This document shows, one piece after another, positions 22,801 to 44,130 of a DNA stretch of 64,000 bases. Position 1 is the stretch's first letter; each line of letters opens with the position of its first letter. Origin of the DNA: Bryoerythrophyllum caledonicum (lineage: Eukaryota > Streptophyta > Bryopsida > Pottiales > Pottiaceae); assembly GCA_963971425.1 (NCBI GenBank), contig OZ020519.1:1194028-1258027 (forward strand). Direction: 5' to 3'. A model generated the notes under the pieces. That model made no database searches, had not been told where the DNA came from, and saw nothing but the letters and a program-made list of their open reading frames with translations. The position numbers and the translations under genes were made by a program.

Positions 22801-24554
22801 GGCAGCGACTGCGGCGGCTGGCGGTAAAACATGTATAAAATTAAAAATTTCTCCAAGTTACAAATGTTCCATAAAGCTCCCAAATGAACCTCCTATCCCG
22901 TCCGTCCAAACAACCTAGCATCCGTAGATCAGTCTAGAGGTTGAGACTTAACTTGACCCAATGCACATGAATGAAGTGCTCCAATTGCAATATATATCTG
23001 ACAAAAGACTGATTGGTTTAATGGCTCCTACCGAGACAGACTTCGTCTTGCCCACCAAAACGGCCAATTGAAGGTGACATTACGTCTATGGTGGATGAAT
23101 GTCGCTCAGTAATCATGCTTTAGAGGAAACTAATAACAATCATGGAATCAGTGCCGGAGTAATGAAGTGGTCGTGAAGCCATGGTTGTCAAATGAGTTGG
23201 TGAATGAATGCAATATTCGAGGTGAGTGGTGAAGCATATGGGGAAGGATGTGGATGCTTGCCGCCCACTTCTGAGAAAGCATCATGCTTGGAGGTTGATA
23301 TGTTGAATATTCAAGGGATTTATAGCATTGTATTTGATGAGCTGGGTTTGACTGTTGGAGATTGATGCATGTTAGGTCAAGGGTCTTGATTATGTGATCG
23401 TGATGCCAAACATGCAAGGGGGAAAAATCTCTATTTTTACTTTAAACAAATAATTCTTTCAATCTCTACAATCAAATGCTATGAAAATTTGTAAGCATGT
23501 TTGTTGATGCTATAGATTTTCATTTAATGGTTGGAAATGGATTTAGAAAAATAATACTTTTATGATTTTGTTGTTTAGCAGTATATTGGGCATATTCAAG
23601 TGTTTATTATTAGAAATAATGAAGAAAATTTAGAGGATATTAAATTGATATGAATGATTATAATACAATTTATTGAATCAAAACCTTTTGCATTCATGGT
23701 AATTTTAGGATCTTCTTTAGTTTATGATATTTGATCTCTACATATTTCAATTTGTAAAGATAATTGGCATACCAAATATAAAAGACAATCAACTTTAACG
23801 CCATATTCATTAAAATGAGACATTTCAGAGTCTCAATTCATCATAGTGTCTAATTATAGTCAATTTACTATTTCATTAATTTGAGACTATTTATTATATT
23901 GAGACTTAAGCTCAATTGAAATTGCCAACTACTACATCCAAAAAAATTATCATAGCAAGAATAAAAATACTCCATAAAAATTTAAGCGGCAAAAATTTGA
24001 GCATCCCTAACAGGGCTCAAAATTGGACTTAAATAAGACATATACTCTCATTTACATGCCACCCAAAATGCATGTCTTCTCAATTTGAAGGGAAATAAAA
24101 TTTACCAATTTCAAGAGGTGGTACTTGTTTCAAACAACAAGGTCATTGAAATACCAATCACTAAAAAATTAGCACATATTGTAGAAATACATTCAATTAT
24201 TTATTTTAATAGAAAGTATCAATGCATCAAGGATAAATGTTGATGTGTCAAACACACAATATTAACCACAATTTATCCATCAATAACTTCACAAACAAAC
24301 GGCAACGGTTAATGATATTGAAGCAACACAATACATCACTACATGAAACTACAAATTATAATCTAATTTTTGTCTATAAATATGCTACACAAACATTCAA
24401 CGTCTCAATTCCTTGACAAACCCCCATGTTCAGTACATACTTGGTACAATATCTAGTCTGAAACAACACAAGTTCAAATAAGGACATGCACCCCCACCTA
24501 TTTCAAATGACTAGGATAACTCTTGTCATCAAAAACCACAGAATCTGTTGAAAT
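22801..24554. other. AT-rich intergenic DNA with a dispersed repeat
   Basis: No gene was seen. The segment 23255-23415 (GATGCTTGCCGCCCA... TGTTGGAGATTGATG... TTGATTATGTGATCGTG) is similar to 44140-44305, so both belong to a dispersed repeat. The part nearest 24554 is the 3' flank of the DUF7869-like frame. Confidence 0.5.
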
Positions 24555-27368
24555 CTAATATTCAGTTAAAGATGCCTTGATTATTTCTACCTGTGATTTC
24601 GGAATTTTGAGCCTCGAAGAGCTAGTGTTCCCACGGAACCTAGGCTTCCAAGCTGTTACAATGCAATCTGTATATACCCAGATTGGTTCAAATTCAGATT
24701 CTTCTACCCAATTGTTCCCATTACTAGAATCACACCCTTGGTACGTTTCCAAGTCCACATGACGTTGGGATGCAGGTTTGTAGTATGGTACTTTAATCTC
24801 ATGAGAATGTTCACGATCCGGATGTGGATTAGTCAATGCCAAGGCAATCCAAAATGGGCGCAAATCCCCATCAGTTGAACGCACCGCAAGTACATAGCCG
24901 TCATATACATCTCTACCAACCCGGAAGGATGGAGGCGGACAATGACGTCGTTGTCCAATGAATGGAGGGTCTTCTGTATACTCCTCCCTCAAAGTACCAT
25001 CTATATCATATTCATCAACAATAGACGGAGCATATCTAGATAGTGGCCAAAATCCCTCTTGTAGGGAAGTCGATTCTTCCAATGGCACCTCAAGAGCAGC
25101 CTTTACACCTCTCCAATAGTACATGATATGCTCATTCTTCCTCCTGTATTCACCTGAGATATCCTCATTTGCCATAGATTCCCATGGACTTAGAAACCCA
25201 GAAATACCCTTCATAACCTCATCATAATTCTCATGACGATGCGGAATGAGAGGAAGTGGCTGCCCATGAGGCAATATTGGTCTATCATCTGCCGTCATTT
25301 TCCACAACTAAATTCCTCCATTCTCCTCGGGCAACCAATCCCTATCTATACAAAGAATTTTGTACTGCATCTTTGGCAAACCATCAGAGTCCTTGTAAAA
25401 CTTGAACTGCTGGCCCTTTGTATGACCCGTAAGGGCCTCATTGCCGTTGCACAAATATCCATCAAGAAAGCCCTTGAAGTCAGGCACTTCTTCAATAAGA
25501 TGTGGAATAACCGGCTTCTCTTCAGCATCCATGAATGACTTCATCAAGAGTGGAATCGTTGGATAGCTATTTGACTTAAGTTTGGTACTCCATCTCTCAA
25601 ACATTGCATCAATATCCTCGTGAGTATGACCAACAAGTAAGAAGTTCACATGTACTTCTCGAAAAATACCCAAATGAACAAGTAGGGAGAAGAAAGCAAA
25701 CACAAATCTATTCTTATTGTCTCATGTGGCATTATCCAATTGCATTTGGAGAATTGGTGGTAATTGCCTTGCAGGAACAGGTTCAACCGGTGGAACCGCA
25801 AGAGATCCAAGGCACACATTGGCATCCACAAGCACAGCCTGAGACAAAGGAGAAGCTCTCCCTCTTGCAAATAATTCACGAGAAGAATACACCGGTGGAC
25901 TCTCTAAGTCCCGAAGTAACTTAGCAATGGATCCAACAGTGTGATTCGAGTCGGTGGGGAAGATGTCAAGACTATAATGTGCATAACGGACATCTCCATG
26001 TCCATGAGCAATCATTCCAGTCACAGCTACGGGGAGTTTCATGAAGGACTCCGTTGCCTTATTCTTGTGAGAAAAATGGGGAGATGATGTTTTGTTGTGA
26101 TCCATTTTATCATAGATGATGCAAACAACGTCATCAGGCCTATCCTCCGAGTTCTTCCGGTTCCCATAATATAAAATACAATGAGTCTGTTGGGAAGCCT
26201 GATGCAACTTTAATTTGGTATCCCACATATTGAATGCAGAGAACCCTCGCGTACTAGCCTTCTTCAATTGCTTCAATTGGTCGCATCTACCGCAGCGAGC
26301 AAAGTTGTCACCCGGTTTCTTAGTAGAAAATTGTTCAAATTCGGAGCTCCGAATTCGGCTAAGACCAAATAAAGATATTGGCTTGAGGCCAAATCTTGAA
26401 TTCACCTCGTTTTCTTTGGACAACATTGCACTCCATTGAAAGGAGGAGGGAAGATGTTTCGAAACAACCTTCGCCCTAGTGCCAAGTGTAGTAGTCTTGT
26501 TAGGACTACTATCAGCAGCATCGTCAAGTAGGTCGTGCAATGTAGCAATTGCTTGGAGAGTATGGGTGCGAGGCTTCTTAGTCCCAGAATTGTCGTGTGC
26601 CATCGCTCGCACTTCATCCTTCGCATCACTTTTGTATCGGTAGAATGTGGCTCGGTTGACCCCCATGATTGTACACCATGCATCTTAGCATACATCAATT
26701 CCATCGAGCGTCACCACATGGTTGCCATTGGAGTCAATGTGCATTTGCCTATGCACATCAAGTAAAACATGTTTCCAAAAGTATAGAGCTCCAATGTCAT
26801 TGTGAACTTACGTTCGAAGTACAGAAATTAAACTGCGTGGAAAGCTTTCAGTACAATTTCTTGGACAACAAACAACGCTCGCATCAAGGTTGATTGATTG
26901 TGCAGAAAGGAGTACTTCCTTCTTTGGTGGGGAAGGCAGCACTCGCCTTTGACGATTGCTCTCATACTGTCGAACACCAATTCTTGGACCCCGACGGAAT
27001 ACCTTTAGAGCGACATTGTAAATGCAAGTTTGCTCTTGATCGTACAAACTCACATTACGAAGAAAGACCTGTCGAATTGGCCATGCTCGGAGAGCAAACA
27101 TCCAATTCAAAGGAATATCATCTTCATTTAAAGATTCAGCAATCAGAACCGCAACATGGTCATCTCCAAATGGCCGACCTCCAGTTTCGGGAATTAAGTT
27201 GGAACCAACACTCTGACATAGTCCGATTCCGACGTTATTCCCTGATGTGTTTTGAAGGATAACGCGCTTCGTAAACCAGGCAGCGCAAGGAATACCCTCA
27301 CAAGGAGCAACACCGGGAGGCAAGGTTGGTGGAACTCGATTTTTGACATCAAATGAGTCTTCTTCCAT
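24555..27368 (-). pseudogene. DUF7869-like (RNase-H-fold, transposase-type) gene with four in-frame stops
   Basis: One reading frame of 938 codons runs from ATG at 27368 to 24555. It is broken only by stops at 26808 (TAA), 26685 (TAA), 25722 (TGA) and 25308 (TAG); no frameshift is needed. An N-terminal cysteine segment (CCPRNC) precedes a helix-turn-helix-like MGVNRATFYRYK. A domain with acidic positions follows: YDKMDHNKT, DIFPTDSNHTV, LQLDNAT near 25740 and VGHTHEDIDAMF near 25610. The last two are typical of the DUF7869 family, which is thought to be of transposon origin. The upstream 0.8 kb holds seven copies of the 19-bp palindrome. It is very likely dead, though recently intact. Confidence 0.7.
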
Positions 27369-27513: not shown

Positions 27514-28176
27514 TATTCTCGACTCAAGGATATGAATGGGAAAAATTATAAAAACACATGAAAATATATCCAAAACACTATCCTCGAGTCGAGGATACTA
27601 GTTGTATGAATTCAACAGAGAGAGTGACATCTGTGCACGGTCCCGGGAAATATCATCAAACAACATACTAACATAGTACTCGATAAGATACATTGAAGAC
27701 ACTAAAATTAAGCAGGTTGATAATAGACGACTATAGGTACATTCTCGACTCGAGGATAAAAGGAGTGTAGGCGATCTTTCCATTCAAGTGATCAAGCACA
27801 ATTGATTTTAATTCAGATTGGCATTGATTTTTTCCATAAGTTGGGTTTATCCTCGGGTCGAGGATAGAGCGAGTAATTTTACTTTAGAATACTAGATTGT
27901 GAATCTCAATCGAACAAAAAAATTCAGTCCTTAAATGAGGATTTTTTCATAGGATCCGTTGATCAACTTTAGAACTAGCAGGAGTCAGTGTTATCCTCGA
28001 CCTGAGGATAAATGTAATGAGGATCTCATTCATAGGACTCGTAGACCGACTGCTAAACTAGCAAGAGTCAGTGTTACCTTCGACCCGAGGATAAATATAA
28101 TGAGGATTTCATTCGTAGGATTCGTTAATCGACAGCTGAACTGGCAAGAGTCAGTGTTATCCTCGACTCGAGGATA
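27514..28176. repeat. Palindrome cluster 1 (seven copies) upstream of the DUF7869-like gene
   Basis: Copies of TATCCTCGA-N-TCGAGGATA (perfect or with 1-4 changes) lie at 27514, 27579, 27740, 27848, 27992, 28075 and 28158 (start positions, 19 bp each). They occupy 146 to 808 bp upstream of the ATG at 27368. The last three ride on an 83-bp tandem triplication (about 27940-28180). Confidence 0.93.
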
Positions 28177-28180
28177 AATG
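27940..28180. repeat. 83-bp tandem triplication carrying a palindrome in each unit
   Basis: Three diverged units, each with CATAGGA(T/C)(C/T)CGT, a GACTGCTAAACTAGC-like middle, GAGTCAGTGTTA and then the 19-bp palindrome. The palindromes start at 27992, 28075 and 28158, which is exactly 83 bp apart. Confidence 0.9.
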
Positions 28181-29000
28181 CTTAGTTTCGAAGTAGTTCA
28201 GTGATATGCTACAGTGATCATGAATAGTGTTGGAGCATTCACAGTACACTTTCTTTTAATTGCATGCAAATTCTACAGTGAATTAGAAGTACTACACCGA
28301 TATCTATGACTTCGACGACGAAATAAATACTACACATAGTGTGAACAAACTGCGGTGATGCGGACGGCCTATGGGCTTGGGTCAAGTAGCCCTCGATTGC
28401 TCAAGAACAGCCTCAGACAACAATCTCATGATGTAGAAGTACCTTTGAGAAGAAATCGAGCACTCCACAAGGATGCGCCAAAAAAAAACCGACGAACTTC
28501 AGATAACCTCAGACATAGTATTGACAACTACTGTGAATGTTCTCAAAAGAAGCAAGACACTGAGCGGAGTAGAGAGAGAGAAGAGAGGATCCAGCAGGTG
28601 CAAAAGTAGGAAATGAACTTCTGAAAATGAGCATACGGTAGTCTTCTGCGAAGCGGAGCTCAAAAATTGGCGCTGGGCGGGAAAACTCCTTTCCAACGGC
28701 TCCAGGATTTGGGGGGCGGGAAACGGTATCCACTGTCCAACTTTTTAGCTGCCGCTGTCCTATTTTTGGTTCGACATACGCACTAATTTCAGTACGCCAC
28801 TAGCTCGGAATCCACGCATGCATTGAACAAGTCTTTTGGATAAGAAGTGGCACAAATTTATCGCCTTTAACCTCTATAGGACCAACTGCCCCCCCGGGGC
28901 CAAATTGGATTTCGGGCATGTACCTAAAATTTGACAAAAATTCCATTTTTATTGAAAAACTTATACTAGATTGCCTCTAATAATAGGTACATGGAGATAT
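28181..29000. other. Intergenic DNA upstream of the palindrome cluster
   Basis: No gene is supported. Apart from the GC-rich patch at about 28600-28760 the sequence is AT-rich and merges into the dispersed repeat family at about 28920-29060. Confidence 0.4.
28675..28724. promoter_or_regulatory. Two E2F-like GCGGGAAA sites
   Basis: GGGCGGGAAAAC at 28675-28686 and GGCGGGAAAC at 28715-28724 stand out in a locally GC-rich patch of otherwise AT-rich DNA. They match the plant E2F core TTTCCCGC (reverse strand). The patch lies about 1.3 kb upstream of the DUF7869-like start and could be its distal promoter. Matches to an 8-bp core can arise by chance. Confidence 0.3.
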
Positions 29001-30430
29001 TTGAAGAAAAAAATATTGGATTTGCGGATTGAATGTTCGTACCACTGAAAGTAAAAAATGGGGACTTCGGGAAGCTCCAAATTTTTTGACAAAAGTTTCT
29101 ATTGACATTGAGTTTTTTCACATATAAAGAATATTTCCTTCTTTGGATAATTTTATATAAAAAACTTGTCTATAGTGTAAAAAGGCATTTTATTCCAAGT
29201 CAAACATTTTCACACATTGTCGGGCAACGGGGGAAAAAAACTTCTTTTCTACATAAATTCTAGAAATCAAGATCTTCGTATTTTTCACTTTTTATTTTTT
29301 CATCAAAAATATGTGGTGAAAACCTTCTTATTGACCGTTTGGATTATCATTCAAAAACATACTTAGATAAAAAAACGAAAAAGTGAAATGGCAATTCTTA
29401 AACCTCCACTCCTTGCACGCTTGTTTTGAATATGCTACACTCCTTTTTTACCTCTAATAAATGGTGTGTGGGAAATAACAGCATGCTTAAGACAATGGTA
29501 AAAGATTTAGACCTTGTACAATGCAAAAATTTGATACAAAGTGAAGTCCAATTCTCTAGATCTACTCATCGCAGGGAAGAAAATGAACCATTGTTTTGAC
29601 CTTCGTGGGAAAACAGTTTTTCCTAAATTCAACTTATGAAGAAAAAATTATAGGGTTTTGAATTTCAAAAAAGGAGGGCGGGCACCTCGGTCACCTCCAA
29701 AACTTTTGCTATGACACTATATCAAATGTGAGATTCTCAATACTTGCAAGTAATATTATTTCAATTTGTACCGTTGATAAAAAGTTCTTGTCTTTAGTGA
29801 AAAATAGCATACCAACCCAAGTGAAACATTTTCACATGTTGTCACTTATTGTCGGGCAAGTTACCAAAAAACTTCTTCTTTCCCACATAAAACCTAGATA
29901 TCTTTATATTTTTCACTTTCCTATTTTATCCACAACAATATGTAGTGTATACCTTCTTAATGACCATAAGGATTATCAATGTAAAACATATCAAGTTCAA
30001 AAAAAAAATTAAACCGTGAAACAACAAATTCTGAGCCTCCACTCCTTGCACAGTTGTTTTGAATTTGCTACACCGGTCCTCTACCTCTAAAAATTAGTGT
30101 ATAAGGAACTAACGGCATGTTCACGAAAATCGTGACAGAATTAGACCTTGTGTAGTGAAAAATTTTGACACCAAGTGAAGTCAAAGTCTATTGTTCCACT
30201 GAACGCAGGGAGGAAAACAAACCAATTGCATGACTTTAAATACTATAATCTTTCAATCCGTGCGGTCAAGGTTTATGAAATACTGAGAGTATCTTACTTT
30301 GCAAGTCTTATTTGAGATTGTACGGTTAGGACTAAAAATCAAAGTATTTGTTTCCTTCTTTGTTCATTGCACTTGAATCCAACAAGTTTGAAGTGTTTTT
30401 GGTGTAAAACTGTCACGGTACGCTAGGGAT
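28920..30430 (+). repeat. Dispersed repeat R1, two head-to-tail copies
   Basis: Two diverged copies (about 28920-29620 and 29660-30430) share an ordered set of words: GGCA(C/A)CTC..AAAACTTTTG, GTCTTTAGTG, CAAGT(C/G)AAACATTTTCACA, ACTTCTT(T/C)T..CACATAAA, CCTCCACTCCTTGCAC, GTTTTGAAT(A/T)TGCTACAC. The second copy ends with AAGTGTTTTTGGTGTAAAACTGTCA and a TAGGGATTAAA word. Other copies are at 31686-31860 (partial), 46400-46900 and 48950-49775. There is no coding capacity. Termini are not defined. Confidence 0.8.
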
Positions 30431-30459
30431 TAAATTACTTTTTCAAAGCAATTTACATA

Positions 30460-31000
30460 AACTATTATTTATAATGTAGAACCTATATTTCCTTATCAAT
30501 TTCACTCCAAAAATTCTTCAAATTTGTAAAATCTAGTGCAATAATGAAGGAAGGAAACAAAGATTTGTATATCTAATTCAAACCGTACGATCTCAATAAA
30601 TTCTTAATCAATTACATGCTCATGAAATGTCAAGAACTTTGAGCGCACGTATTGGAAGGTTATAGTGTTTGAAGTAGAAAAAATGGTTCATTTCCATCCC
30701 AACGTTTAGTGGATGAGCGGACTTTGACCTCATTTGGTGTCCAGTTTTTACACTACACAAGGTCACAGCCATTAACATCATGGTATTTAGCATGATATTA
30801 ATTATTGTACACATTTTTAAGAGGTAAAATAGGGGTGTAGCATGTTCAAAAATATAGTGCAAGGAGTGGAGGTTGGAATAATGCCAATTCATGCCTTAAT
30901 ATTTTGGAAACAAAGTATGCTTTAGAATGAAAATTCCCACGGTCACTAAGAAAATTTACACGTCTTGTAATAGAACTAATACAGTGACTCACAAAAGTTG
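30460..31000 (-). repeat. R1 copy in inverted orientation (foldback with 29660-30430)
   Basis: Reverse complement reading gives the R1 words in order: TTGCACTATATTTTTGAACATGCTACACCCC (about 30840-30870), ATGTTAATGGCTGTGACCTTGTG, then TTTGTTTCCTTCC..TGCACTAG..TTTGAAGAATTTTTGG (about 30500-30560). It lies directly beside a plus-oriented copy, so the RNA could form a hairpin with arms of about 0.5 kb. Confidence 0.7.
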
Positions 31001-32220
31001 TTGGCCGCCCTAAAAATGGCTCTCATAAATTGAGAAATTAAAATTATAAAGTGAAATTTGGACATGTTATAATACATAAGGGAATCTACCTTCATGATGA
31101 ATTTCACTTTAAATAGACTATTTTAAGACACATTTTTATTTGAATGAAATTTCTATGGAAATAAAAACTTTTTTGTGAGAAGTCAAAATGTTTCATTTTT
31201 AAAATAGGAAGAATGTGCATCTTGACTTGAGTCACATGTTACAAGTTTCATGAATTTGGGATTTTTATTCATTGAGATCTTATTGATTGAAATTTGACCC
31301 TAAAATTTTGATAGAGTTATAATAATTCAAAAAAGGCATGCCGAATGATTTGGGAAATTATTGAGTGAAATGCTGAAATTGAAGAAAATAGTAACATACA
31401 AAATCTTTGAACACAAAAGACATCAATGGAGAGTTCTGGCTTGGAAAGCCTTGATTCTTGGAAGTGTGTGCAAAAGAGCTCCAAGTAGGGAGCACGAGGT
31501 CTTAGGCTCAATCACCTAGGCCGTCAAAATAGGCTAATTATAGTAATCTATGAACTGCAACGGAAATCTTCTAGAAACTCTTTTAGAAAGCCGAACCCAC
31601 TTTTTTGACTATTATTAATTATTCGGCGTCCAAGTGCCGAAGGTGCCCTTGACCTATGGTATATTCCATTTCTAAAAATTTGTTTATTTACGAGCACCTC
31701 CGGCAACTCCAAAAACTTTTGCTAGACCACACTACTATATTTGAGATTTTCAACACTAGTAAGTTGTATACATTTTCTTTTATATTGTCCATAATCATTA
31801 TTGCTTGTAGCAAAAAGATGCATTTGAAGAACAGTAAAAGATTTTCACACATTGCCACAACTACACTAAAGATGCCTTTTAGTGTAATAGTACAAATTGT
31901 GTATTTACCCTGGTACACTCTTTGTTAACAAGTTACCAAATACTATTAGCTCCAATTATCATTAATATTATCTTTCAATCGTCCACCTATCCTAGTACCC
32001 GTTGTATTTGCCTCAATCATCCACCCACCACAATTTGTAACAAGTTGACAAATAGTGTTTGCCCCCAATCAACCGCCTATTGCCCGCCATGCATTTATTC
32101 TACCCGTCTTGTCCTCAAACTCATCTCCTTATCCTCCCATTCCTAACTATTCCAATTCACATGTCAAGCATTCCTTGAATTAAAAACATGAATATCTAAT
32201 GAGAATTACAAGTATATATC
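31001..32220. other. AT-rich DNA with a partial R1 copy
   Basis: Only 31686-31860 is assigned: it matches the start of R1 (GGCAACTCCAAAAACTTTTG, then TTGAGATTTTCAACACTAG). No gene was seen in the rest. Confidence 0.5.
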
Positions 32221-32238
32221 TATACTGAAGAAAAAATA

Positions 32239-32620
32239 GATGATTTTTGAATGAATGTTTCAAGAATATTTAATGTATATTTTTATATTTTAGAAATGCA
32301 TAGATGATTTGTGAATGAATGTTTCAAGAATATTTAATGTATACTTGTATATTTAAGAAAGGAATAGGTGATTTGTGAATGAATGCTTCAAGAATATGTA
32401 ATGAATAATTATATGTGAAAGAAAATATGGATGATTTGTGAATGAATGTTTCAATAATATTTAATGTATAATTATATGTTAAAGAAAATATAGATGATTT
32501 TTGAATGAATGTTTTCAAGAATAATTAATGTATATTTCTAAATTTAATAGTGTAATAGAAGATTCTTGAATGAATGTTTCAAGAATGTAATATGTATATT
32601 GAAATCTTTAAAGATTAAAC
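32239..32620. repeat. Tandem array of a 63-65 bp unit
   Basis: Six units begin GATGATTTGTGAATGAATG or a close variant at 32239, 32303, 32367, 32430, 32493 and 32558. Spacing is 64, 64, 63, 63 and 65 bp. Each continues with TTCAAGAATATTTAATGTATA. Flanking DNA to 33000 has looser ATTTAATGTATATTT repeats. Confidence 0.93.
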
Positions 32621-33690
32621 AATAGTTAATGTATCTTTGTATCTTTTTAAGAATATTGAAATAAATATACACTAATTTTTAAAGGATATTGGTTTATTTA
32701 AGGTATATTGCTATGTTTGACGAATATTTACTGTACATATGTATATTTAACGAATACTTATTGTATATTATTATATTTAAAGATCATATAGAAAATACTT
32801 CAATAGCATTTAGTAAAAATTTAGAGTTTCACATTTATTTTTCCTAAGACGATTAAAATATCTAAATAAATGTATATTTGCAAAATTATAAAAGAATACT
32901 CAATGAATAGCTAATCATTTTTAAATGTGTATTTAATGTATATTTGAATATTTATAAAATATTCAATGAATTTTTGCTGCATATTTAATGAATATTTAAT
33001 GAGTGTGTAATGGAAACTTCTATTTTTATTAGATATTTATGTTGTTTGTATTCCAATTTTCCTTTCTTTTCCCTCTTTTCTTCTAAATCAAAGTTCTAAT
33101 TTTTTTAATCTAGTAGTTCTAGTTTCAATTTTTCTCCAAATGAACATTTTTTGTTGTCAATTTTTTTGGGATTTCCCATTTGTTCCATATGTACGTTCTA
33201 TTTTTTTTAAACATTCCTTGTGCAATTTTTTTTTTCTACATGCACTCAAAATCTTCTTTATTTTGATGCTTAAAATGTACACATTGTAATTTTCTAGGTT
33301 ACATACACTAAATGTACACAAGTAGAAAACCTAATGTTGCACTACTTATAGAATTGACATTTACTATTGTAGTTGACATTTAGTGTATAGTATTGTCACT
33401 ACATCAATGGATAACTTTTAAATTTGTATATGGGTTTGCATTTGGTGTCCACTACACTAAAAGCCATTGTTATTGTAGAGTGACAAAGAACCACCAAAAA
33501 TTATATTTTTGCACATAAATTTGAGACATTATTTTGGACTTTATATTTTTCAATTACAAGACGTGGTGTAAAACTTTGGAAATAAAAAGTCCCCTTTGCA
33601 GTAAAAGTCCCCTTTGCTGAGTTTATTTTTTTTGGCTGCCCGCTGCCCGATGCTCCTGCCCACTGCGCGCTGCCCGAAACGGCATTTGGC
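32621..33690. other. AT-rich DNA upstream of the large plus-strand gene
   Basis: There is no gene. Degenerate TAATGTATATTT words continue to about 33010. Long T runs follow (33150-33240). A GC-rich patch with GCTGCCCG repeats and TTTGGCGGCGC begins at about 33630, directly before the likely transcription start. Confidence 0.4.
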
Positions 33691-34500
33691 GGCGCGGTGA
33701 ACCACCGCGACTCCCTCACTTCTCTCTCCATTCTCTCTTCCTCTTCTCTTCTATCTTCTCCTCACAGCTCTTCTCTCAATCTATCAAACCCTAGTCTCTC
33801 AATCTCTTCTCTTTCAACCTCTCACCTAGTTTGTTTTTGCGCAACATCCTCTCTCTATCAGTTTGTGTTAGGTCTACGTTGTGAGTTGAGAGGTGTGTGT
33901 GGTGAGGTTGGAGTTGTAGTTTCGTGTTGTGAGGTGTGTATTGTGGTTTGTGTTGTGAGGTGTGAGGTGTGTGTGCGTTGTGCGGTCATAGTGTTGTTAG
34001 GTGAGTGTGTGTTTCGTGTGTGTGTCTCGTGAGGTGTGTGTGTATGTGTGTTGTTAGGTGTGTGTGTGTTGTTAGGTTCTGTGTTCGTGAGGTTTAGTTC
34101 GTTTTAGGGTTGAGTTTAGTTTCGTTTTGGTTAGGGTTTCGATTAACCTTGTTTTCTTGCGAGGGGTTTGTTAATGTGAATGTTTAGTTGCGTTTAAGGT
34201 TAATTGTTTAGTGCGTTCAGGGTTTCATTTGATAGAATTTCGCCATATAGCATAGTGTGAGATTCTGGCAGGGTTTAGGGTTTCTACAACACATTGCAAT
34301 TTCTGTGATAACATTGGAGTGTAGAGTTTGTTGATTTTACATTTCAAAGGGTTTTGTGTTTCATTGTGCATATTTCTGTGTGGATTACTTTTGTGACATT
34401 ACATTGTTCTATAGGTGCACTGTGTGCAATTGTAAAGCTCAAATATACAACATAATCCCATTTCATTCGAAAGGTAATAATTTTCATATCATGTGAGTTG
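33691..34500 (+). promoter_or_regulatory. Likely promoter and 5' untranslated region of the large plus-strand gene
   Basis: A GC-rich patch at 33630-33715 is followed by a CT-rich stretch with TCTCTC runs and AAACCCTAG (33785-33800), a common look of plant 5' leaders. GTGTGAGGTGTGTGT repeats follow (33890-34070). No TATA box was assigned. The ATG of the coding part lies 1.5 kb downstream, so a 5' UTR intron is likely. The open frame at 33697-34032 is composition-driven. Confidence 0.4.
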
Positions 34501-34589
34501 CAATACAGAAGTCTCAATTCAATCTCATCTAAATAATATAATCCGTAATTTCTGGGGTTAGGGTTTCAGATTCAACAGGGATCACAATA

Positions 34590-35276
34590 TATCCTCCAAT
34601 CGAGGATACGAGATAGTCCGTAGGCTTACAGCTTATCCTCGAGTCGAAGATAAGAGTCAATATTCTATTTACAATTTATCCTCGAATCGAGGATAAAAGT
34701 CAGTTAAATACAATTTTACATAAGGATGAAGCTCAAATAATCCCTTCATAGCAGTCCCACATATCCTCGAGTCAAGGATAAGTGTCAACCTTGTGCATAC
34801 AGCTCATTTAAGAATCTAGGGTAATTTGATCCTTTCGAAAACTTACAATAATTCTGTCATTTTATACTTGTGCATGATGTAATATAACAAAAAACACTTT
34901 CGTAACAGATTAAAGTATCCTCGAGTCGAGGATATTTATCAATCCAGTAGTTTCTTGTCGATTCTAAAGTCAAGAACATACCCATTACTATTAAAAAAAT
35001 CAGAATATACTAATTGATCTGTAAAAGATGCATGAAGTAAGTTGACGAGAATCTCATTCCCAAGAGTCCTTTGTATCCTCGAGTCAAGGATACAATCCAA
35101 CCTCTGTCTATTTCACCAAGTATAATTCACGAAAATCAATATATTTGGTCTACGTCATGATATAATATCTAAATTAACAACTTACCGATTGTCTTTATCC
35201 TCGAGTCGAGGATAAATGTGCGAAATGAACTTATTGAAGTTTGAAGCGATTAATATCTATCCTCGAGTCGAGGATA
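34590..35276. repeat. Palindrome cluster 2 (eight copies) upstream of the ParB-like/FCP1-like gene
   Basis: Copies of the 19-bp palindrome start at 34590, 34634, 34677, 34762, 34916, 35074, 35196 and 35258. They lie 34 to 738 bp upstream of the ATG at 35310. Four (34916, 35196, 35258 and, with a changed centre, 34677) have both arms perfect. Spacing is irregular (43-158 bp) and the DNA between copies is not repeated. Confidence 0.95.
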
Positions 35277-36231
35277 ATGTTAGCGTTAACTTTCTCACTC
35301 GATTTCCTAATGTCTCTACGCAGCTCGCCATTCCCGATGGATCCCGTCGACGACTACGACTACTCGGGGTCATCATACTTCATCACGGAGTTTGAAAATC
35401 CTGTCGCCCCGTTGCCTTTCATCGACGACGTCGTCGAGAACTACGGAAAGCTGTGGTCGTTCAACCCCGACATCCTTGGATGGTCCCTCTTCCGGTCGGA
35501 GAAGAACGTTCTTCTTTCTTTCAAATTGAAAGAGGAAATTCCATATGTTCCATAAAACAGAAATGAAAGAGTGACGTTCGTGGAGCAGCGTCGACGCGAT
35601 TACATCGTTCTCGGTATCCAGGCCGTGAACGATGCTGGGGAGGACCTTCCGCACTTTCACTCTATTGTTGTAAAAGTGGGTGATACTTTTGGGCAATTCG
35701 ACTTCAACGAATTGCTTGAGGGTGCCGACAAACATGGGTAGGGGGCGTTGCGTGAAGCGTTTGAAAAATACAGTCTGTGGTCAAATGACGACGTTGAGAA
35801 GGTAAACAGGAGACTGGTATGTATTCACCAACTGCTATCAAACTTTGAGGCCCGTCCGGTTCCGGTCGCTCCACCTCCTCGTCGTCGGCCCAAGTAGAAG
35901 AGCACAATAGCCGGCGAGGTCACCACAGAAGCGGCAGATGCGACTCGAAGTACGAGTCGTGGTGCTCCATGGAGGGCTTCTGAGATGGCCTCCAACCTAG
36001 GCGAACCATCCAAACGGAAGAAGACTGCTACGGCCGGTGGGAGTTCGACTTCGACTGTTACGAGGGCTACAACTCCAGCCAAATCGTGCAATGATCCCCA
36101 AGTAGACTTCGAGAAGATAACGGAGTCCCAGAGATTGTTTTGGGAGGAGTGCAATTCTTGCTTTCCGTTCGAGTCCACATTCACTGTGAACATCGAATAG
36201 TGTGTACCCGCCAAAGCCCAGTTCATGATTC

Positions 36232-36590
36232 GTGGGATGTGGGATCCGGAACTCCATGGACTTTCTGGTCCAACTTGGACAGGTAAACCAGCGTCAGAAG
36301 ATTTGCATCTGCCCGATCGATGACGCCGGAGAACCGATAACGCGGAAGCCCAACTCCTGGGACAATATCAAGGATGGGAGGTTCATGTTGATCAACGGAC
36401 AACACAGCGTCGAAGCTTCCAGAAGACTTCAACGTGTTGAACAATGCGAGGAGCAACGCAAATGGGACTTGTGCCATTGGGATGCATATGTTGTGTGGAC
36501 AACGGATCCTCTGAAGTTGCAGAGGATTTCAAAGTTCTACAACGACACCAACTACCTTGATCATGCCCAGCCTACGTGGGGAACCAGATT
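36232..36590 (+). other. ParB/Srx-like segment of the large gene
   Basis: The frame reads KICICPIDDAGEPIT, then W..IKDGRFMLINGQHSVEAS, then a Trp/Val-rich stretch and KLQRISKFYNDTN. The DG-R-(x)3-INGQHSVEA block resembles the GERRxxA or DGQHR box of the ParB/sulfiredoxin superfamily (here G-Q-H-S-x-x-A). The later ISKFYN resembles the conserved 'N' region. ParB-like proteins bind palindromic DNA (parS) or act as nucleases. The match is by eye on one block, so it could be another fold. Confidence 0.4.
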
Positions 36591-36695
36591 TCAAGTTGCA
36601 GGAGAATTTGGCTCAACTCTGGTAGACCCAGCTACCAATACAACGAGGGCGACTTGCGAATGAATGGTGCCAACTTCGACAAGGAGAAGTACTTG

Positions 36696-36869
36696 GTAAG
36701 GTTCCAATTCCTTAAGTATCGTCGAGTCGAGGATAATCTTCCATGCCTTTCTGTGTACCCGCTTGTTGATATGTTGTATGCTTCTTGTAAAAATATCCTC
36801 GAGCCGAGGATACTCTTCCATGCGATATCCATGATTAATTTTTCTAATGTTGTCTGTACTATGTTGCAG
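36696..36869 (+). other. Intron 1 of the large gene, with two palindromes
   Basis: The donor is TTG|GTAAGG and the acceptor TTGCAG|TTG. The flanking frames join in phase 0. Copies of the 19-bp palindrome start at 36717 and 36794. Confidence 0.75.
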
Positions 36870-37299
36870 TTGTTTGCGAAGTTGATTGTCACGCGCTTCC
36901 AGAACATCGACCCCACGAAGGAAGGGAAGCAAGTAAACAAGTCATCGGACCTTACCAATGAGATTAAGGTCATCACTCTTCCAGATGACATTTTCAACCT
37001 CTGGGAAGAATTCCTCAATCAGCACAGCCGCGAAGACATCATAAACCCCGACACAGCTTGTCCATACAAGGATGCTAGGGGTTTCAAACCTTAGCCAATC
37101 CACCGTGAGTTTTTTAAGAGATTGGGTCATCTGTCCGACCAGGATTTAAGAGATTTGTTCACTTACCTGGTTGACAGTGATCGCGGGCAAGGTTATCCAA
37201 AGGTCATGCTTCGTAGGACTGGCGTGGTACATGGATCGTGCTACCACTACAAGGAGTGGGCTGATCGAAGGAAGAAAAAGCGCGTCGTCATGCTGCATG

Positions 37300-38560
37300 C
37301 AGGAGCTGGTGCACATCGACCCATCTTTATTGTTTTTACTTCCAAATGGGTCAATCGACGACGCAATGTGGAAGGAGTGGAAGGAGAAGCACCGTGGGTC
37401 TTCTGCTACTTACAACATGCTCCTCTGTCAACCCAACAAGGAGTTATGGTCGATGAGGTTGACCAATGCGGGGAAGCTGAAACGAGCATCTCATCTGCTA
37501 AAGAAGTTCCCGAACGTTCTTCCGTTCTTGAAGAAATTTTTACATTTGAAGAACTTGTTCACCCCGCACGATGGATATGTGAAACTTCGCGAGTTTAATG
37601 CAGATAAGCTGGAGTTTGGTGATTACTTCACCGCTCCAGATGATTCTAAGGAGTTTACACTGGGACTTCTCGACCTCCGTGAGGTACCCGGCTGGCTGTC
37701 CAAGGACGACCCCCTGGACGAACCATACTTTGCAGACTTCATGAATGCCATGAAGTTGCAAAAGAGTATCCCAAACATGAGCACTCCTCATGTTTGGATC
37801 TGGATCACCTCCTCTGCCAACCGCGCGTTGCAAGCTGCAAAGTTTGCCGAGAAGCGGATGGCCCGGTATTCGCCCGTCTCCTCGGCGTACCTTTCGTCAG
37901 CCAATGAGCGCCTGTATTACAGGACGTCCAGGGCTAAAGTTACGGATGTGAACCTACTCTTCTTAGTGAAGAAAAGTCATCCCCAGGCTTCCGTGCTCAT
38001 CAACAAAGTGAGGCCGTTCTACTCTCCACCAGATACATTCTTCTACAAAGAGAAGAATAAGTATCTGGAGGCAGAATTCTCCGTCCACGGCTCGGAATTA
38101 CGGATGGAGTTTTACTTGGAGCTACTCCGGGACTTCTGCAATAAAAAAGAGAGGATTTTCAGAATTTTCTATGGTTCCAAATTTATGATGTCCACTCTGG
38201 TACGCTCTCATTTGAATCATTGTAGTCTATCCTCGAATCGAGGATACACCTTACGGTATGCTGTCGTCTGAAACATTGTAGTCTATCCTCGAGTCGAGGA
38301 TACACCTTACGGTATGTTGTCGTCTGAAACACTGTAGTCTATCCACGAGTCGAGGATAGACAGTTATGTCTGATCATTAGTTTTACAGTGGTTTATCCTC
38401 GAATCGAGGATAGACAATTGATTTCATTTCGGATTTTATTTCCCATTATCCAATTTCTAATCTTAATTTTTCATGTCTCATGCAGATGTTTGGAACGTCT
38501 TTCTATGGACTCATTGATGAATCCTTCCGGCTTCAGTGCAAGAATCAAATGCAGCGCATT
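37300..38560 (+). other. Possible DNA-methyltransferase-like segment of the large gene
   Basis: The long frame 37300-38199 plus the start of the next exon reads as a mixed alpha/beta domain. LGLLDLREVPGW (about 37663) sits where N4/N6 methyltransferases have their catalytic DPPY-type motif, but that motif is not conserved here. Near the end, RIFYGSKFM (about 38157-38190) and, across the intron, YGLIDESF could correspond to the FxGxG cofactor loop and following strand of the beta-class order. ParB-methyltransferase fusions are known in phages and bacteria. Without a clear DPPY the call stays tentative. Confidence 0.28.
38200..38485 (+). other. Intron 2 of the large gene, with four palindromes in 56-bp tandem units
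   Basis: The donor is CTG|GTACGC and the acceptor ATGCAG|ATG. Palindromes start at 38228, 38284, 38340 and 38394. The first three lie in 56-bp tandem units (TTGTAGTC-palindrome-CACCTTACGGTATG). Confidence 0.75.
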
Positions 38561-39738
38561 TTTCTGTTGGACATGAATTATTTCATCCACCAAGACTGTG
38601 CTTACCTTCAGCCTTAGCCTTCCAACGCTGGAGATGCATCTACATTGACCGCTCAGGCTACACCTCTGGAATGCGTTCCAAGGGCCCGAATATCGCCAAG
38701 GAGGGCTGAACGTGTTCGCCAACGTGCTCAACGCTCTGGTGCTGGATCGCGGCAGGACTCCCCCGAGACCCAGAGGGCATCTGATAGTGGTGCACCGACT
38801 CAGTAGCCTCCTCAGGATGACTCTCCTTTGCTCGTCAATCCATATGGGAGCAATGACGGCGTCGATCTTTCGATCCTTAGCTTGGATGATAGTGAGCCGT
38901 CATATCGATATCGTAGTAGATCGCCGCCTCGCTGACCTCATGTGCTCGCGGACGAAGACCTTCCGGTGGACGACGAAGCCGTTTATATGGAAGTTCAAGG
39001 CGGTCTTGACATATCTCCTTTGGTTGGTACCGCCCCTGCACCAAGTGTTCCCGTCGCTGGTACCACCCCTGTATCAGATGTTCCCGTCGCTGGTATCGCC
39101 CCTGCAGCAAATGTTTCCGTTGCTAGTACCGCCCCGGCATCAGATATTCCCGTCGCTCGTACCATTGTAAAATATGTCCATGTCATCCTACTGTCCGACT
39201 CCAGTGATGATGAAGGTGGAGATCGTCCCAGTACATCTCAGAATGTGGAGGCACCGACCGTGGTGACAATGATGGTTACGATGGATGTGGAGGACGCTTC
39301 CTTACCTGATGCCGCCTCCGCAGATGCTACTAGGCATGCTCCGGCCCCTCGGCTGCCGGTGGTGGGCGCGTCTTTACCTGATGACACCTTCGCAAATGCA
39401 GCTAGGCATGCTCCGGCCCCTAGGCTTCCTGTGAAGTACGAACCAGGTGCTGGCTTTTATGAGCACCAACGCAACCAATGCCTTTAGGAGCGGCAGGAGA
39501 GGCAAACAATCTTGGCACAGTTAGAGGCTGCCAGAAGAGACACGCTGAGATGGAATCTGCTTTCGAGAAGCAGCGGGCGGAGTCTGATCAAGAGAAAGAG
39601 AGGATGGCGGCATCAATCCGCGCGGAGATCCAAGCGCAGATGTTGGTGGAACTCAATCGACGTCTTGCTGAGCAAGCTCACATTTCGGTTCCCATCCCCG
39701 CTGCTCCATCCGGATCCGTCGTGTCTCATCCCTCCACT

Positions 39739-39916
39739 TATCCTTGCACCGAGGATAACTCTGTGGCTGAGCCTCAGCCTCGTTCAACTGGATTGCAACC
39801 TTGCACTTCATCTAACCCACTTGGAGAAGCCGCCATTTTGATTGAGGTGCCAGTTCTGCTTGGGGATATCCCCTCTTCATCGTCCGGGCCTTCTGAGTAT
39901 CCTCGACCCGAGGATA
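39739..39916 (+). repeat. Two palindrome copies inside coding sequence
   Basis: At 39739-39757 (TATCCTTGCACCGAGGATA) and 39898-39916 (TATCCTCGACCCGAGGATA) the palindrome lies in the open frame. Both read in the same phase, as TYPCTEDN and EYPRPEDT. It looks like the palindrome was accepted into the protein, or arose there twice. Confidence 0.85.
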
Positions 39917-40595
39917 CTCAGCCTTCAATCCCAACTCTGATTACCCCTACGGCAGAAGGGGTCGGCGCTGTTGTTCGTGTGCGTGATGTCTATGTTGATG
40001 GTGCTCCTCTTCCTGGCGGTTCGACTCTATCGGTCCCTGCTCAACTTAAAGAAGAGTCGTCTCATGTGGAAGCTGTAGTGAAGGGAGAGGAGGTGTGCAT
40101 GGAGGAGCGCATCGACTACGAGCCATCTCCAGAGCCTCGCGGACCATAGTCATCAGAGGTGGATAAGGTTGGCTAGCTTTTTAATACATTTTTGCCCGTT
40201 TTATGATGAAGTGCAGCCTTGATTTTTTTGGAATGACTGTCCTCAGACTCAGTAGGTTTTTTCTTGGATGTGTTTCTATGCAGGCGTCGGATCCATACGC
40301 ATTTTGATGTACTTTACAAGGAGTGTATGTTTTTGTATATACAATGTTATCATAATTCAAAGAATTGTTTAACGATTCATTTTCTTCAATTGTTTCTCAG
40401 ATTGGATTGGATGACATTGTTCACCGTCCTCTTGCATTGAAGTCTCCAATTGGGATAGTTGTATCCCAATCGCTATGTGGGGGGGGATTTGTGCAAGCAA
40501 TGGCAATTCCATTGCATATTACTCAATCTGCATTTTATCAGGTACCTACCACTTATTGCTACCATTGACTGTATTGTGTGTTGGTCCTGTCCCAG

Positions 40596-41399
40596 GACCT
40601 TGTTCCTAGAACTGTGTCCATTGTTGAGAGCGTCGGACCAGCAAAGTGGCTAAATCTCGTCATGGATTTGAATGGCATTCTATGCGTGACGGATTCAATC
40701 TCTATTGCTGTGAGGCTTACCGCGCATAGCTCACAACGGACTGATTATTCGTCCACCATTCCTACCTTGATTGGACCGAAGGCGGTCTACTTTCGTCCTG
40801 GTGTTCGTGAGTTTTTATCGATCATCAGAAACTTTCTGAACTTTGTCGTCATCTGGAGCTCTATGAAGAAATCCACAATCGAGGCAATCGCAGCTTGTCT
40901 CTTCAGGGATCTGGGGCCTCCTTTTCTTGTTCTAGATCAAGAGAAATGTTCACAGATAAAAACTTCGCGGAATGTGTACCTCATGGCTAAAGATAATAAG
41001 GAGAAGCCAATGTTTTTGAAAACCTTGTCGAAAACGTTGTTTAGCCTTCGGCATGAGCTGGTAGTCTTTAACTCCGACAACACTCTTCTTATAGACGACA
41101 ACCCGAAGAAGAGTGTTTGTAATTTTACCAGGAACGCCATCCTCTTGCCTCCATGGAGACGCGGAGATACGAATGATAATGTCCTTACCGGGACCCTTCT
41201 TTCGTGGCTTTGCCGCTTGCATTCTGAATGTCCTCTTGGGCAGTTGAAGAATTACGTCGATAGTAATTGTATAGGGGCACCTCCTTTGGTGCGTAATAGT
41301 CCTATAATGAAGCATATCATTGATGGAATGGCGCTCTCCACAAGGAACATGGGTACTGCGTACGAGATTCCCAATGTTTTTAAATCAGCTCCCAAATAA
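40596..41399 (+). other. FCP1/NIF (HAD) phosphatase-like domain of the large gene
   Basis: The last exon reads KWLNLVMDLNGILCV, VYFRPGVREFLSIIRNF, VVIWSSMKKSTIEAI, ELVVFNSDNTLLIDDNPKKSV and NAILLPPW. This is the order of the FCP1-homology fold (NIF family), which dephosphorylates proteins such as the RNA polymerase II tail. The catalytic DLDGT is DLNGI here: Asp at 40665 is kept, and Asn (codon 40671) replaces the second Asp. The second Asp acts as general acid in HAD phosphatases, so activity is doubtful. The 804-bp exon itself has no stop before TAA at 41397. The 54-bp intron before it (40542-40595) is short. Confidence 0.7.
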
Positions 41400-41838
41400 T
41401 TGTAGGAGTAACTCCTACTCAAGATATAGGGGAACTTCATATATGTAGGGGTTTTCAATGTAGGTTTAGTGCGTCGGATACATTTTGTTCTATACTTGTA
41501 GCTAAAACGTACTTGTAAATCTTGTATATATTTTGAAAACTGTTAATATATAAATCTGTTCGTTTTCTCCTTCTACATATTTGTCGTATTTGTCACCTCT
41601 TATGATGCCATGAATTTATCTTCGAGTCAAGCATAATTTCATTGCCTCGCATGTGTTCATGTTCTTTCTCTCATTCCTTGCTTTATTCCAATGATTTCAG
41701 GTTTCAAAGTCTAGTGTTGATCCTACCGCATGCCTGAATATTGGTAGTATGCTGCCCTCAGATGTTAGCGTCATTCCGGAGTACTCTGGGTCTTATGGTG
41801 GTGACATCTCCCAACCCTAGCAATCAAAACCATATCTT
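41400..41838 (+). other. 3' flank of the FCP1-like exon with a degenerate palindrome
   Basis: After the TAA at 41397 the sequence looks like a 3' UTR, with TATATAAATCTG words near 41545. A degraded palindrome, TATCTTCGAGTCAAGCATA, lies at 41617-41635. A possible 3' splice site (TTTCAG) is at about 41700, so the ORF at 41839 may belong to a spliced transcript. Confidence 0.4.
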
Positions 41839-42444: not shown

Positions 42445-44130
42445 AATGTATCTAATAGATACATTTAGTAGACAATATTATATGATGATTCTATATGTTA
42501 GGGTTGATTTTTCTAGAATCTATTCGGGAAGTTGTCTCCGTGTATAGCCAGCAGTGAGTTGTTTGGATTTTATAAATAAAGTTTTTTAAACGATTCATTT
42601 TGTTTGTGCATATTATTCTAAATGCATGTATTTTTGTATGGTGTTCTACTATTAATAATTTGTAGTCGGAACCGTTGCATGTTTACTTCGCTTTTGCCTT
42701 CTACCATGCACCTTTGTTTTGTCACTTGTGATTTCTTGTTTTAGATTGCCATTTTTCAGGAGCATTTAGTTTTGGTGAATGGTTGGTTCTCTATGGTAGT
42801 AGCGAAGATAGATCTATCATGTCATACCACTTTAAATTAACAATTAACTTAATGTCTAAGTCTTTAGTTATTATTTGAAATATAACACAATAGTATGTAC
42901 TCTAAGAGAACTGTCTTCCAATATAGGCACTCCCTAACTTGTTGATAATTGGCCCAAATACAGTATATTACCTTTTCTTCTAAGATAAATATTTAGAATT
43001 TTGCCCTTACAATGTTGGGGGGACCGCTTGGTGATGCTTTTCCTTATGTTGTTTATTGTATTTTATAGTTTGCAATAACTATACACGTTGTTTATTGTTC
43101 CGAAATAATAGGCTTTTAGTCTCGAAATTCACAATTTGTCTCATTTTATTGAATATAGTGTTCTTTCTAGTTTCAATTTGGAATAATATTATTAGTGTGT
43201 ATATTTTTATATTTAAATTTTATAAGAGAAAATAGTTATTGCTATTAAAATGAATCTTTTTAAAAAACTTTTAATTTTTTTAAATAAAGAAAATAGTCTG
43301 TTACATATTATTATTTTGTATTTTATGTTCTTTAAGTCTGTTTTTATTGATGGCCTTCTCAATTTCTTCTATTGCAACTATATGTTGTCATGGCTTTGAA
43401 TAACATTTTATGTCTTGGCTAGTACTACTAATTTACTATATCATTGGAATTATATTTCAAAAATTGAAATTACTTATATTTTCATATAAATATGAGATAA
43501 AATATTTAATAAATACTTGAAATTTCTTATTTAATAGATATTTTATCTCATATTTAATAAATACTTGATTAAATGTTTTAATTTTTTGTACAAAATTTAA
43601 ATAATATGTAAAATCCAACTTTACAATACATATTGAGAGTAATAAAATAATGCAACACTTTTACTTAATCCATCTACGATAAATTCTTAGTTTCATATTT
43701 AAAATTCTTAGTTGAATAAATAACTTTATTTATTGAATTTTGATGCAATAGATGATTTTTACCATCCTCAACATCTTCTTGAATATATAACTCTATAAAA
43801 TCATATATAATAAACATATTTTGTTTAACTGCATTGATTACCAAGACTATTGATAACCTAAGTCAAACAAAGGCAATAATTTAATTGAGCATGGCAAGAG
43901 GAATCTTTTCTATTGTCAGTTCTTTTATTTTTATTTTTTAAATAGCCTTAATCATTTCATTACTCTTTACATTCTTACATTTTGTGTAACACCTCTTATG
44001 TTATATCATTGTTGAATTTTATATATTTTAGTTTGTTCCAAATTAACCAAAAAATGCCATGCCTACAAGATCTTCATTTTTTTACAACTCAACAAAAGAA
44101 CATTGAATACATGAACTCAACACAAGAACA
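42445..44130. other. AT-rich DNA without a gene
   Basis: No gene or named repeat was recognised. Base composition is strongly AT, with poly-T and ATTTAA(A/T) words. Confidence 0.45.

Follow-up and report, generated by a model that had tools for sequence, protein, structure and literature searches.

A 64,000-nucleotide stretch of the genome of the moss Bryoerythrophyllum caledonicum (contig OZ020519.1, positions 1,194,028 to 1,258,027; hereafter the window, in whose positions all coordinates are given unless another contig is named) carries a 19,366-bp DNA transposon in which a short palindrome recurs 24 times. All of these palindromes are parts of the element; they are conserved, their two arms vary in concert, and they track the family of a protein encoded by one of the element's two genes. 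From these observations we infer, with a probability of roughly 0.6, that they are dyad binding sites for a dimer of that protein, the ParB/methyltransferase-like product of gene 2, and that binding would likely serve anti-silencing or chromatin control.

Twenty-four palindromes inside one transposon

Matches to the pattern TATCCTCGANTCGAGGATA start at 24 places in the block from 27514 to 41635, 9 of them perfect, 9 with one mismatch, 3 with two and 3 with three, whereas 100 dinucleotide shuffles gave 0.02 on average and never more than 1. The conserved part is better given as TATCCTCG-N3-CGAGGATA, to which 12 of the 24 sites conform perfectly, 8 with one change, 3 with two and 1 with three. 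A preliminary description of this DNA had listed the same 24 start positions, every one of them exact, and had seen no copies elsewhere in the window, where indeed no further match to TATCCTCGANTCGAGGATA exists at up to three mismatches. Its remark that the palindrome is confined to one block applies inside the window but not genome-wide (see below). Its view that the copies are not simply a tandem repeat is correct for most of them; 7 of the 24 sit in two short tandems, an 83-bp tandem at 27934-28180 with three copies and a 56-bp tandem at 38199-38420 with four (the last unit being 63% alike), so that a minority of the palindromes multiplied together with their flanks.

Because inverted ends and a duplicated CTTT bracket the whole block, the element is a 19,366-bp DNA transposon with all 24 sites within it; the match of 23 out of 26 between its ends was reached by none of 200 dinucleotide shuffles of the two flanks. 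It contains two divergent genes, gene 1, encoding a DUF7869 protein, and gene 2, encoding a protein with a predicted ParB fold and a predicted DNA-amino-methyltransferase fold, and is laid out as follows.

23793..23796, left target-site duplication CTTT, with the identical 4 bases at 43163-43166, immediately outside the inverted ends
23797..23822, + strand, left terminal inverted repeat of 26 bp, 23/26 complementary to 43137-43162
24558..27368, - strand, gene 1, DUF7869 protein (Pfam PF25273, E values of 1.8e-32 and 1.2e-7 on two pieces)
27514..28176, array 1, seven palindromes upstream of gene 1 (starts 27514, 27579, 27740, 27848, 27992, 28075 and 28158)
34590..35276, array 2, eight palindromes upstream of gene 2 (starts 34590, 34634, 34677, 34762, 34916, 35074, 35196 and 35258)
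35337..36695, + strand, gene 2 exon 1, predicted N-terminal beta-rich domain and ParB-fold domain (mapped by tblastn with protein P0028; fold modelled for the relative in L001)
36696..36869, + strand, gene 2 intron 1 (GTAAG...CAG), palindromes at 36717 and 36794 (exon ends from P0028 and P0003 alignments and the sequence)
36870..38199, + strand, gene 2 exon 2, predicted amino-methyltransferase fold with altered catalytic motifs
38200..38485, + strand, gene 2 intron 2, palindromes at 38228, 38284, 38340 and 38394 (splice sites read from the sequence, exon end from P0003)
39739..39916, palindromes at 39739 and 39898, between exon 2 and the phosphatase exon, without a mapped exon; open frame 39463-40146 spans both
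40569..41396, + strand, exon of an NLI-interacting-factor-like (NIF) phosphatase (Pfam PF03031, E value of 1.6e-12)
41617..41635, palindrome with three mismatches, the last before the right end
43137..43162, - strand, right terminal inverted repeat of 26 bp
43163..43166, right target-site duplication CTTT

Seven sites thus lie upstream of gene 1 and eight upstream of gene 2; intron 1 has two, intron 2 has four, and three are farther downstream, where no exon is mapped. The mapped exons of the element contain none, and two sites fall in the unassigned open frame 39463-40146. The ends are free of sites, the first palindrome lying 3,717 bp from the left end and the last 1,527 bp from the right. 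The ratio of observed to expected CpG is 1.09 and 1.25 in the arrays (0.90 with the sites masked) and 0.67 to 0.68 outside the element; the higher ratio in the arrays lends weak support to low methylation there, though exon 1 also stands at 1.02.

The window copies of both genes are interrupted. Gene 1 has in-frame stops at 25308-25310 and 25722-25724, with further stops from 26685 to 26810 unless an intron lies there; in gene 2, exon 1 has four in-frame stops and two frame changes, and exon 2 has one in-frame stop (37092) and one frame change. Same-lineage gene-1 matches occur elsewhere in the genome, several with 937-residue open frames. The product of gene 1 is probably a transposase; our literature search on DUF7869 returned nothing.

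DUF7869 gave 3,611 first-look candidates in the genome, of which 150 were scored, and several copies of equal score have open frames of about 1,066 to 1,087 residues. Being abundant, with several equal-score copies that have long open frames, the family looks recently mobile.

Site clusters and element genes across the genome

In the 437-Mb genome, 4,265 sites match at up to one mismatch, compared with 4 for a reversed-pattern control. We used a list of 70 distinct perfect sites, from which repeated minus-strand rows had been dropped, together with scored gene copies (92 of 1,880 ParB-exon candidates and 125 of 3,611 gene-1 candidates). These first 70 listed sites, which lie in C1:1-16.55 Mb, fall into 14 clusters, where 67 would be expected at random, and 4 of the 14 contain a scored ParB-exon match. 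All four scored ParB-exon matches in this interval have perfect sites on either side, with an intron site 16 to 19 bp past the exon, and four of the six scored gene-1 matches there have arrays 0.8 to 2.0 kb upstream of the match start. As the match starts about 0.7 kb inside the gene, these arrays would lie about 0.1 to 1.3 kb upstream of the start codon if the layout is that of the window. The two genes also travel together: 65 of the 92 scored ParB-exon matches have a gene 1 within 25 kb, 64 of them divergent and at a median distance of 11.7 kb, compared with 2.3% at random (125 of 125 and 92 of 92 places used). The clustering that the preliminary description had proposed to look for is strong among the listed sites, which, where checked, lie beside element genes; a genome-wide spread apart from these genes, which it had named as the contrary outcome, was not seen among the sites listed. 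Nineteen other genome stretches (190 kb) held no site of either arm type defined below (A at up to three mismatches, B at up to two), which tells little because only about two sites would be expected there at average density.

Contig C1 (65 Mb, 15% of the genome) accounts for 30 of the 92 ParB-exon matches and 52 of the 125 gene-1 matches (P of 2e-5 and 5e-13, respectively), and it may be a sex chromosome or a transposon refuge.

Conservation of sites in related loci

Two related loci were compared with the window. In L001, whose protein shares 79% identity with that of the window over 116 residues, all five sites have perfect arms, four of them upstream of the gene and one in intron 1. Synonymous sites are saturated between the two, with a proportion of synonymous differences (pS) of 0.77 to 0.82 and of nonsynonymous differences (pN) of 0.12 to 0.24, and outside the exons blastn aligned only the first bases of intron 1 besides the sites. 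In L027, a further copy from the genome of the window but on a different contig (pS 0.68 and pN 0.14 against the window over 128 codons), there are nine sites, six of them perfect: four in the promoter region, one in intron 1, two in intron 2 and two farther on. Here, too, two sites lie between exon 2 and the NIF region, and the mapped exons contain none. The sites are kept even where the rest of the non-coding DNA cannot be aligned.

The L001 contig is filed under a Synechococcales metagenome-assembled genome (AVDCRST_MAG81), and its protein P0028 is named cyanobacterial in public databases; since the locus has an intron and its protein is so similar to that of the window, it is presumably eukaryotic contamination. 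A second protein, P0013, likewise carries a prokaryotic name (Nitrosocosmicus) in public databases.

Two arm types that follow the protein

Database gene predictions often run from the exon into the intron, and we read such tails for the palindrome. Among 63 relatives of exon 1, 39 have a tail of at least 8 residues, and a palindrome is encoded in 25 of these, whereas the same test applied before the exon end gave 1 match in 21,294 residues. The arms are of two types, A (TATCCTCG) and B (TATCGTCG-N3-CGACGATA), which fit without mismatch in 15 and 14 of 72 proteins, respectively; 299 symmetric scrambles fit 0.017 proteins on average and at most 1. Where both arms are readable, 12 sites are A/A, 9 are B/B and 1 is mixed (P of 2e-5, near-copies included). 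In a tree of the 25 exon-1 relatives with a readable site type (of 63), the type needs 2 changes, compared with 7.9 when shuffled, and none of 500 shuffles was as low. All B rows fall in one group; its first branch is P0049 (type B, on a long branch), followed by P0035, which has one site of each type. In the genome of the window, type A accounts for 4,265 sites at up to one mismatch and type B for a single exact one; its 92 scored copies of gene 2 are 70 to 76% identical to the type-A locus L001. Among these distant relatives, arm type tracks the phylogeny of the ParB-fold protein of the element, with the two arms changing together.

The half-like word that the preliminary description had noticed near 58540 proved to be the centre of a small element resembling a miniature inverted-repeat transposable element (MITE), with a palindrome that is different but related (core CTCGANTCGAG).

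58395..58631, MITE-like element of 237 bp with related ends, a 4-bp duplication (AGGG) and a central palindrome at 58528-58550

Its ends resemble the left end of the large element at 20 of 26 positions. Other element lineages may have site words of their own, as this palindrome hints.

In IMG/VR, neither the exact pattern nor relatives of the ParB exon had a match; looser A and B patterns matched one contig each (GC content 61-62%), which we take as chance.

The predicted product of gene 2

Modelling gives exon 1 the ParB N-terminal (ParB/Srx) fold and exon 2 the fold of beta-class DNA amino-methyltransferases. Profile searches having failed, both identities rest on these folds; for the methyltransferase, such searches returned only two weak arginine-methyltransferase matches (E values of 0.25 and 0.29). 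The catalytic D/N/S-P-P-Y/W/F motif of beta-class amino-methyltransferases is not present in alignment A1, in which 8 of 9 rows have D-[LVF]-[RS]-x-x-P at the end of the corresponding strand, as positioned by eye (P0005 has S for P). Nor is the S-adenosylmethionine motif FxGxG present; [YF]xG[STAG]K stands in all 8 of the 9 rows that reach it.

Relation to known systems

The nearest known system is the Sola-1 element of Ectocarpus (Sola1-1_Ec32), in which a single accessory gene, transcribed against the transposase, is reported to combine a ParB-like domain with an N4/N6-methyltransferase domain, with green and red algae mentioned as well (PMC12477816). Like the element described here (19.4 kb), it is a large DNA transposon (21.5 kb), and the opposed accessory gene is a shared feature that is not general to Sola elements. 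The 4-bp target-site duplications (CTTT in the element, AGGG in the MITE-like element) also agree with those described, in the text available, for Sola elements (PMC10741241). The difference is that the moss element has dense arrays of palindromes that co-vary with its protein, and altered methyltransferase motifs. In the available text of the Ectocarpus paper, the ParB-methyltransferase genes of giant algal transposons are guessed to bind their own element, the stem "palindrom" is absent and no sites are given (PMC12477816). Searches of the literature for such sites, or for ParB together with transposon anti-silencing, turned up nothing nearer than this element; nothing fitting on ParB with plant transposons or moss was among the matches listed, and none of the matches listed for the 9-base half words concerned transposons by title. 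What is already known, then, is the presence of ParB-methyltransferase genes in giant Sola-type algal transposons; apparently new, in that our searches did not find them, are the arrays of sites and the way in which these co-vary with the protein. The arrays provide a concrete candidate for the target, and because two matched pairs of protein and site type occur naturally, binding, spreading and an effect on methylation are directly testable.

VANDALs, Arabidopsis elements whose VANC proteins act in anti-silencing, are Mutator-like, and a Pfam scan of 10 pieces of open reading frames (ORFs) from the window showed no VANC or Mutator match. The layout resembles that of VANC targets, whose motif is reported to recur at high density and in tandem repeats outside the coding sequence, both upstream of one gene and within the introns of others (PMC5735166, PMC10398659). 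In both cases motif arrays occupy promoters and introns of the element, and motif and protein change together between families; unlike the VANC21 motif (YAGTATTAY), which is non-palindromic and of one orientation, the sites here are palindromic.

With ParB/parS, Noc/NBS and VirB the element shares a ParB fold and palindromic sites. VirB, a ParB relative, is an anti-silencer that binds a parS-like site on a plasmid and spreads from there (PMC10653881). Different from these bacterial systems are the eukaryotic element, the lack of GxRR, the methyltransferase-like domain and the many sites per element. Bce_0392 of Bacillus cereus likewise joins a ParB domain to a DNA amino-methyltransferase domain (an adenine methylase), its ParB part nicking DNA non-specifically according to the text available (PMC5512222); in the moss element, the motifs of the methyltransferase are altered and palindromes accompany the gene.

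Interpretation and alternatives

A perfect dyad with a 3-bp centre that is retained in promoters and introns, and with co-changing arms that track a protein, is the expected product of a dimeric, element-encoded DNA-binding protein. The preliminary description had offered binding sites of an element-encoded protein as one candidate, and this candidate fits the membership in the element, the non-coding placement, the conservation and the way in which arm type follows the ParB-fold phylogeny. Gene 2 is the first candidate because ParB proteins load at palindromes and because the ParB relative VirB acts in anti-silencing. A dimer of its protein would bind the palindromes in both promoter regions and in the introns and so coat non-coding DNA of the element that encodes it and of that element's close relatives, but of no others; binding would likely serve to control chromatin and transcription of the element in a sequence-specific way, most probably as a VANC-like anti-silencing, and a ParB fold would suit loading at the palindrome and spreading outward. 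Anti-silencing is our first choice because the layout matches that of VANC targets, with self-repression next; if true, this would be a second case, unrelated to the first, in which a transposon escapes silencing through a coat on its own non-coding DNA. In its fullest form, the idea is of a eukaryotic counterpart of ParB/parS. A ParB-fold protein borne by the transposon, its methyltransferase domain disabled, would load on the roughly two dozen palindromes in the promoters and introns of its own element, spread from them and block host silencing; site and protein would switch jointly from A to B, so that each lineage would guard no copies but its own and those of non-autonomous kin. The VANC principle would then have been invented a second time, independently and from bacterial parts. 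We put this forward tentatively, considering it rather less likely than its opposite.

Several observations weigh against binding by the gene 2 protein or limit the case for it. The nucleotide (CTP-binding) motif of ParB is GxRR. At the equivalent position, judged by eye, this is replaced by INGQHS, invariant in the 39-row alignment A4 (which took 38 of 45 proteins), and NGQHS is kept in the 19-row alignment A2, with V for I in P0019; the absence of GxRR makes CTP-driven loading or spreading doubtful. A helix-turn-helix (HTH) was not identified, the stretch after the ParB domain (the start of exon 2) being modelled with low confidence, and profile searches of Pfam and PHROGs with 19 members of the gene 2 protein family gave no ParB match at E values up to 10. 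The genome association is a sampled one, comparing the first listed sites on C1 with the best-scoring gene copies, and two of the six gene-1 matches in C1:1-16.55 Mb are more than 3 kb from any perfect site. By the strict test, 14 of the 39 tails lack a site, although several hold near-misses, and the A and B labels include near-copies, which inflates their clustering. There are exceptions to the pattern as well: P0057, of type A, lies among the B proteins, both types occur in P0035, and P0053 is mixed, as is site 36717 of the window itself. Finally, co-variation by itself does not tell which protein binds because gene 1 travels with gene 2, and the palindrome would fold as an RNA hairpin, too.

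If the gene 2 protein does bind, the sites might still be operators through which it represses or tunes its own two promoters, with no silencing role. Their clustering upstream of both genes is as expected for operators, and self-limiting transposons are common, but a few sites would do for that, whereas the element has 24, including six in introns, and intron sites are kept in relatives; we consider this unlikely. Somewhat less probable again is binding by the DUF7869 transposase of gene 1, for transposition or self-regulation. The ends of the element, several kilobases and 1.5 kb from the nearest palindrome, are without sites, and the strongest DUF7869 matches of other lineages in the Pfam search come no nearer than 47 kb to a ParB exon (76 of 150 places compared with 60 of 92), four high-scoring ones in C1:1-16.55 Mb not being near listed perfect sites either. 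On the other side stand the joint travel of the two genes and the MITE-like element, which keeps related ends and one central palindrome of related type.

A role in the transcript (in splicing, in stability or for an RNA-binding protein) would draw on the fact that three site forms each fold as an 8-bp hairpin (-8.3 to -9.1 kcal/mol), that paired arm changes fit RNA as well and that intron sites lie near the splice donor. That nearness, however, is partly an effect of the reading, as tails end at the first stop; moreover, the exact sequence is kept and not pairing alone (the two arm types make up 21 of the 22 sites with both arms readable), the gene-1 arrays would lie upstream of the start codon given the window layout, and Rfam had no match in the window. 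We hold a transcript role to be improbable, a little more so than transposase binding. Very improbable, finally, is that the 19-mer spreads by itself, as satellite drift or as a mobile mini-palindrome. The preliminary description had likened the copies to Rickettsia palindromic elements (RPE), but RPE insert inside protein-coding frames, and the sites here avoid mapped exons, hold matching places in the gene architecture of copies and relatives and follow the protein tree, so that the two short tandems with their 7 of 24 copies are what is left in favour of such spread, and we rejected it. Host regulatory sites were not favoured either, given the 14 clusters formed by the 70 listed perfect sites (67 expected) and their position beside element genes where checked.

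Other features of the window

The NIF/CTD-type phosphatase exon may stem from a host gene that the element captured, or be one more accessory domain; the stretch that holds it (40114-41371) aligns to L027 at 69%. Between the two arrays, 28200-34580 is a 6.4-kb AT-rich stretch with inverted repeats of its own and 64-bp tandem repeats, and some site clusters on C1 have a gap of about 6 to 9 kb at the matching position; the stretch may be either an ancient component of the element or a nested insertion that was inherited. The window also has Copia- and Gypsy-like ORFs, as judged by eye.

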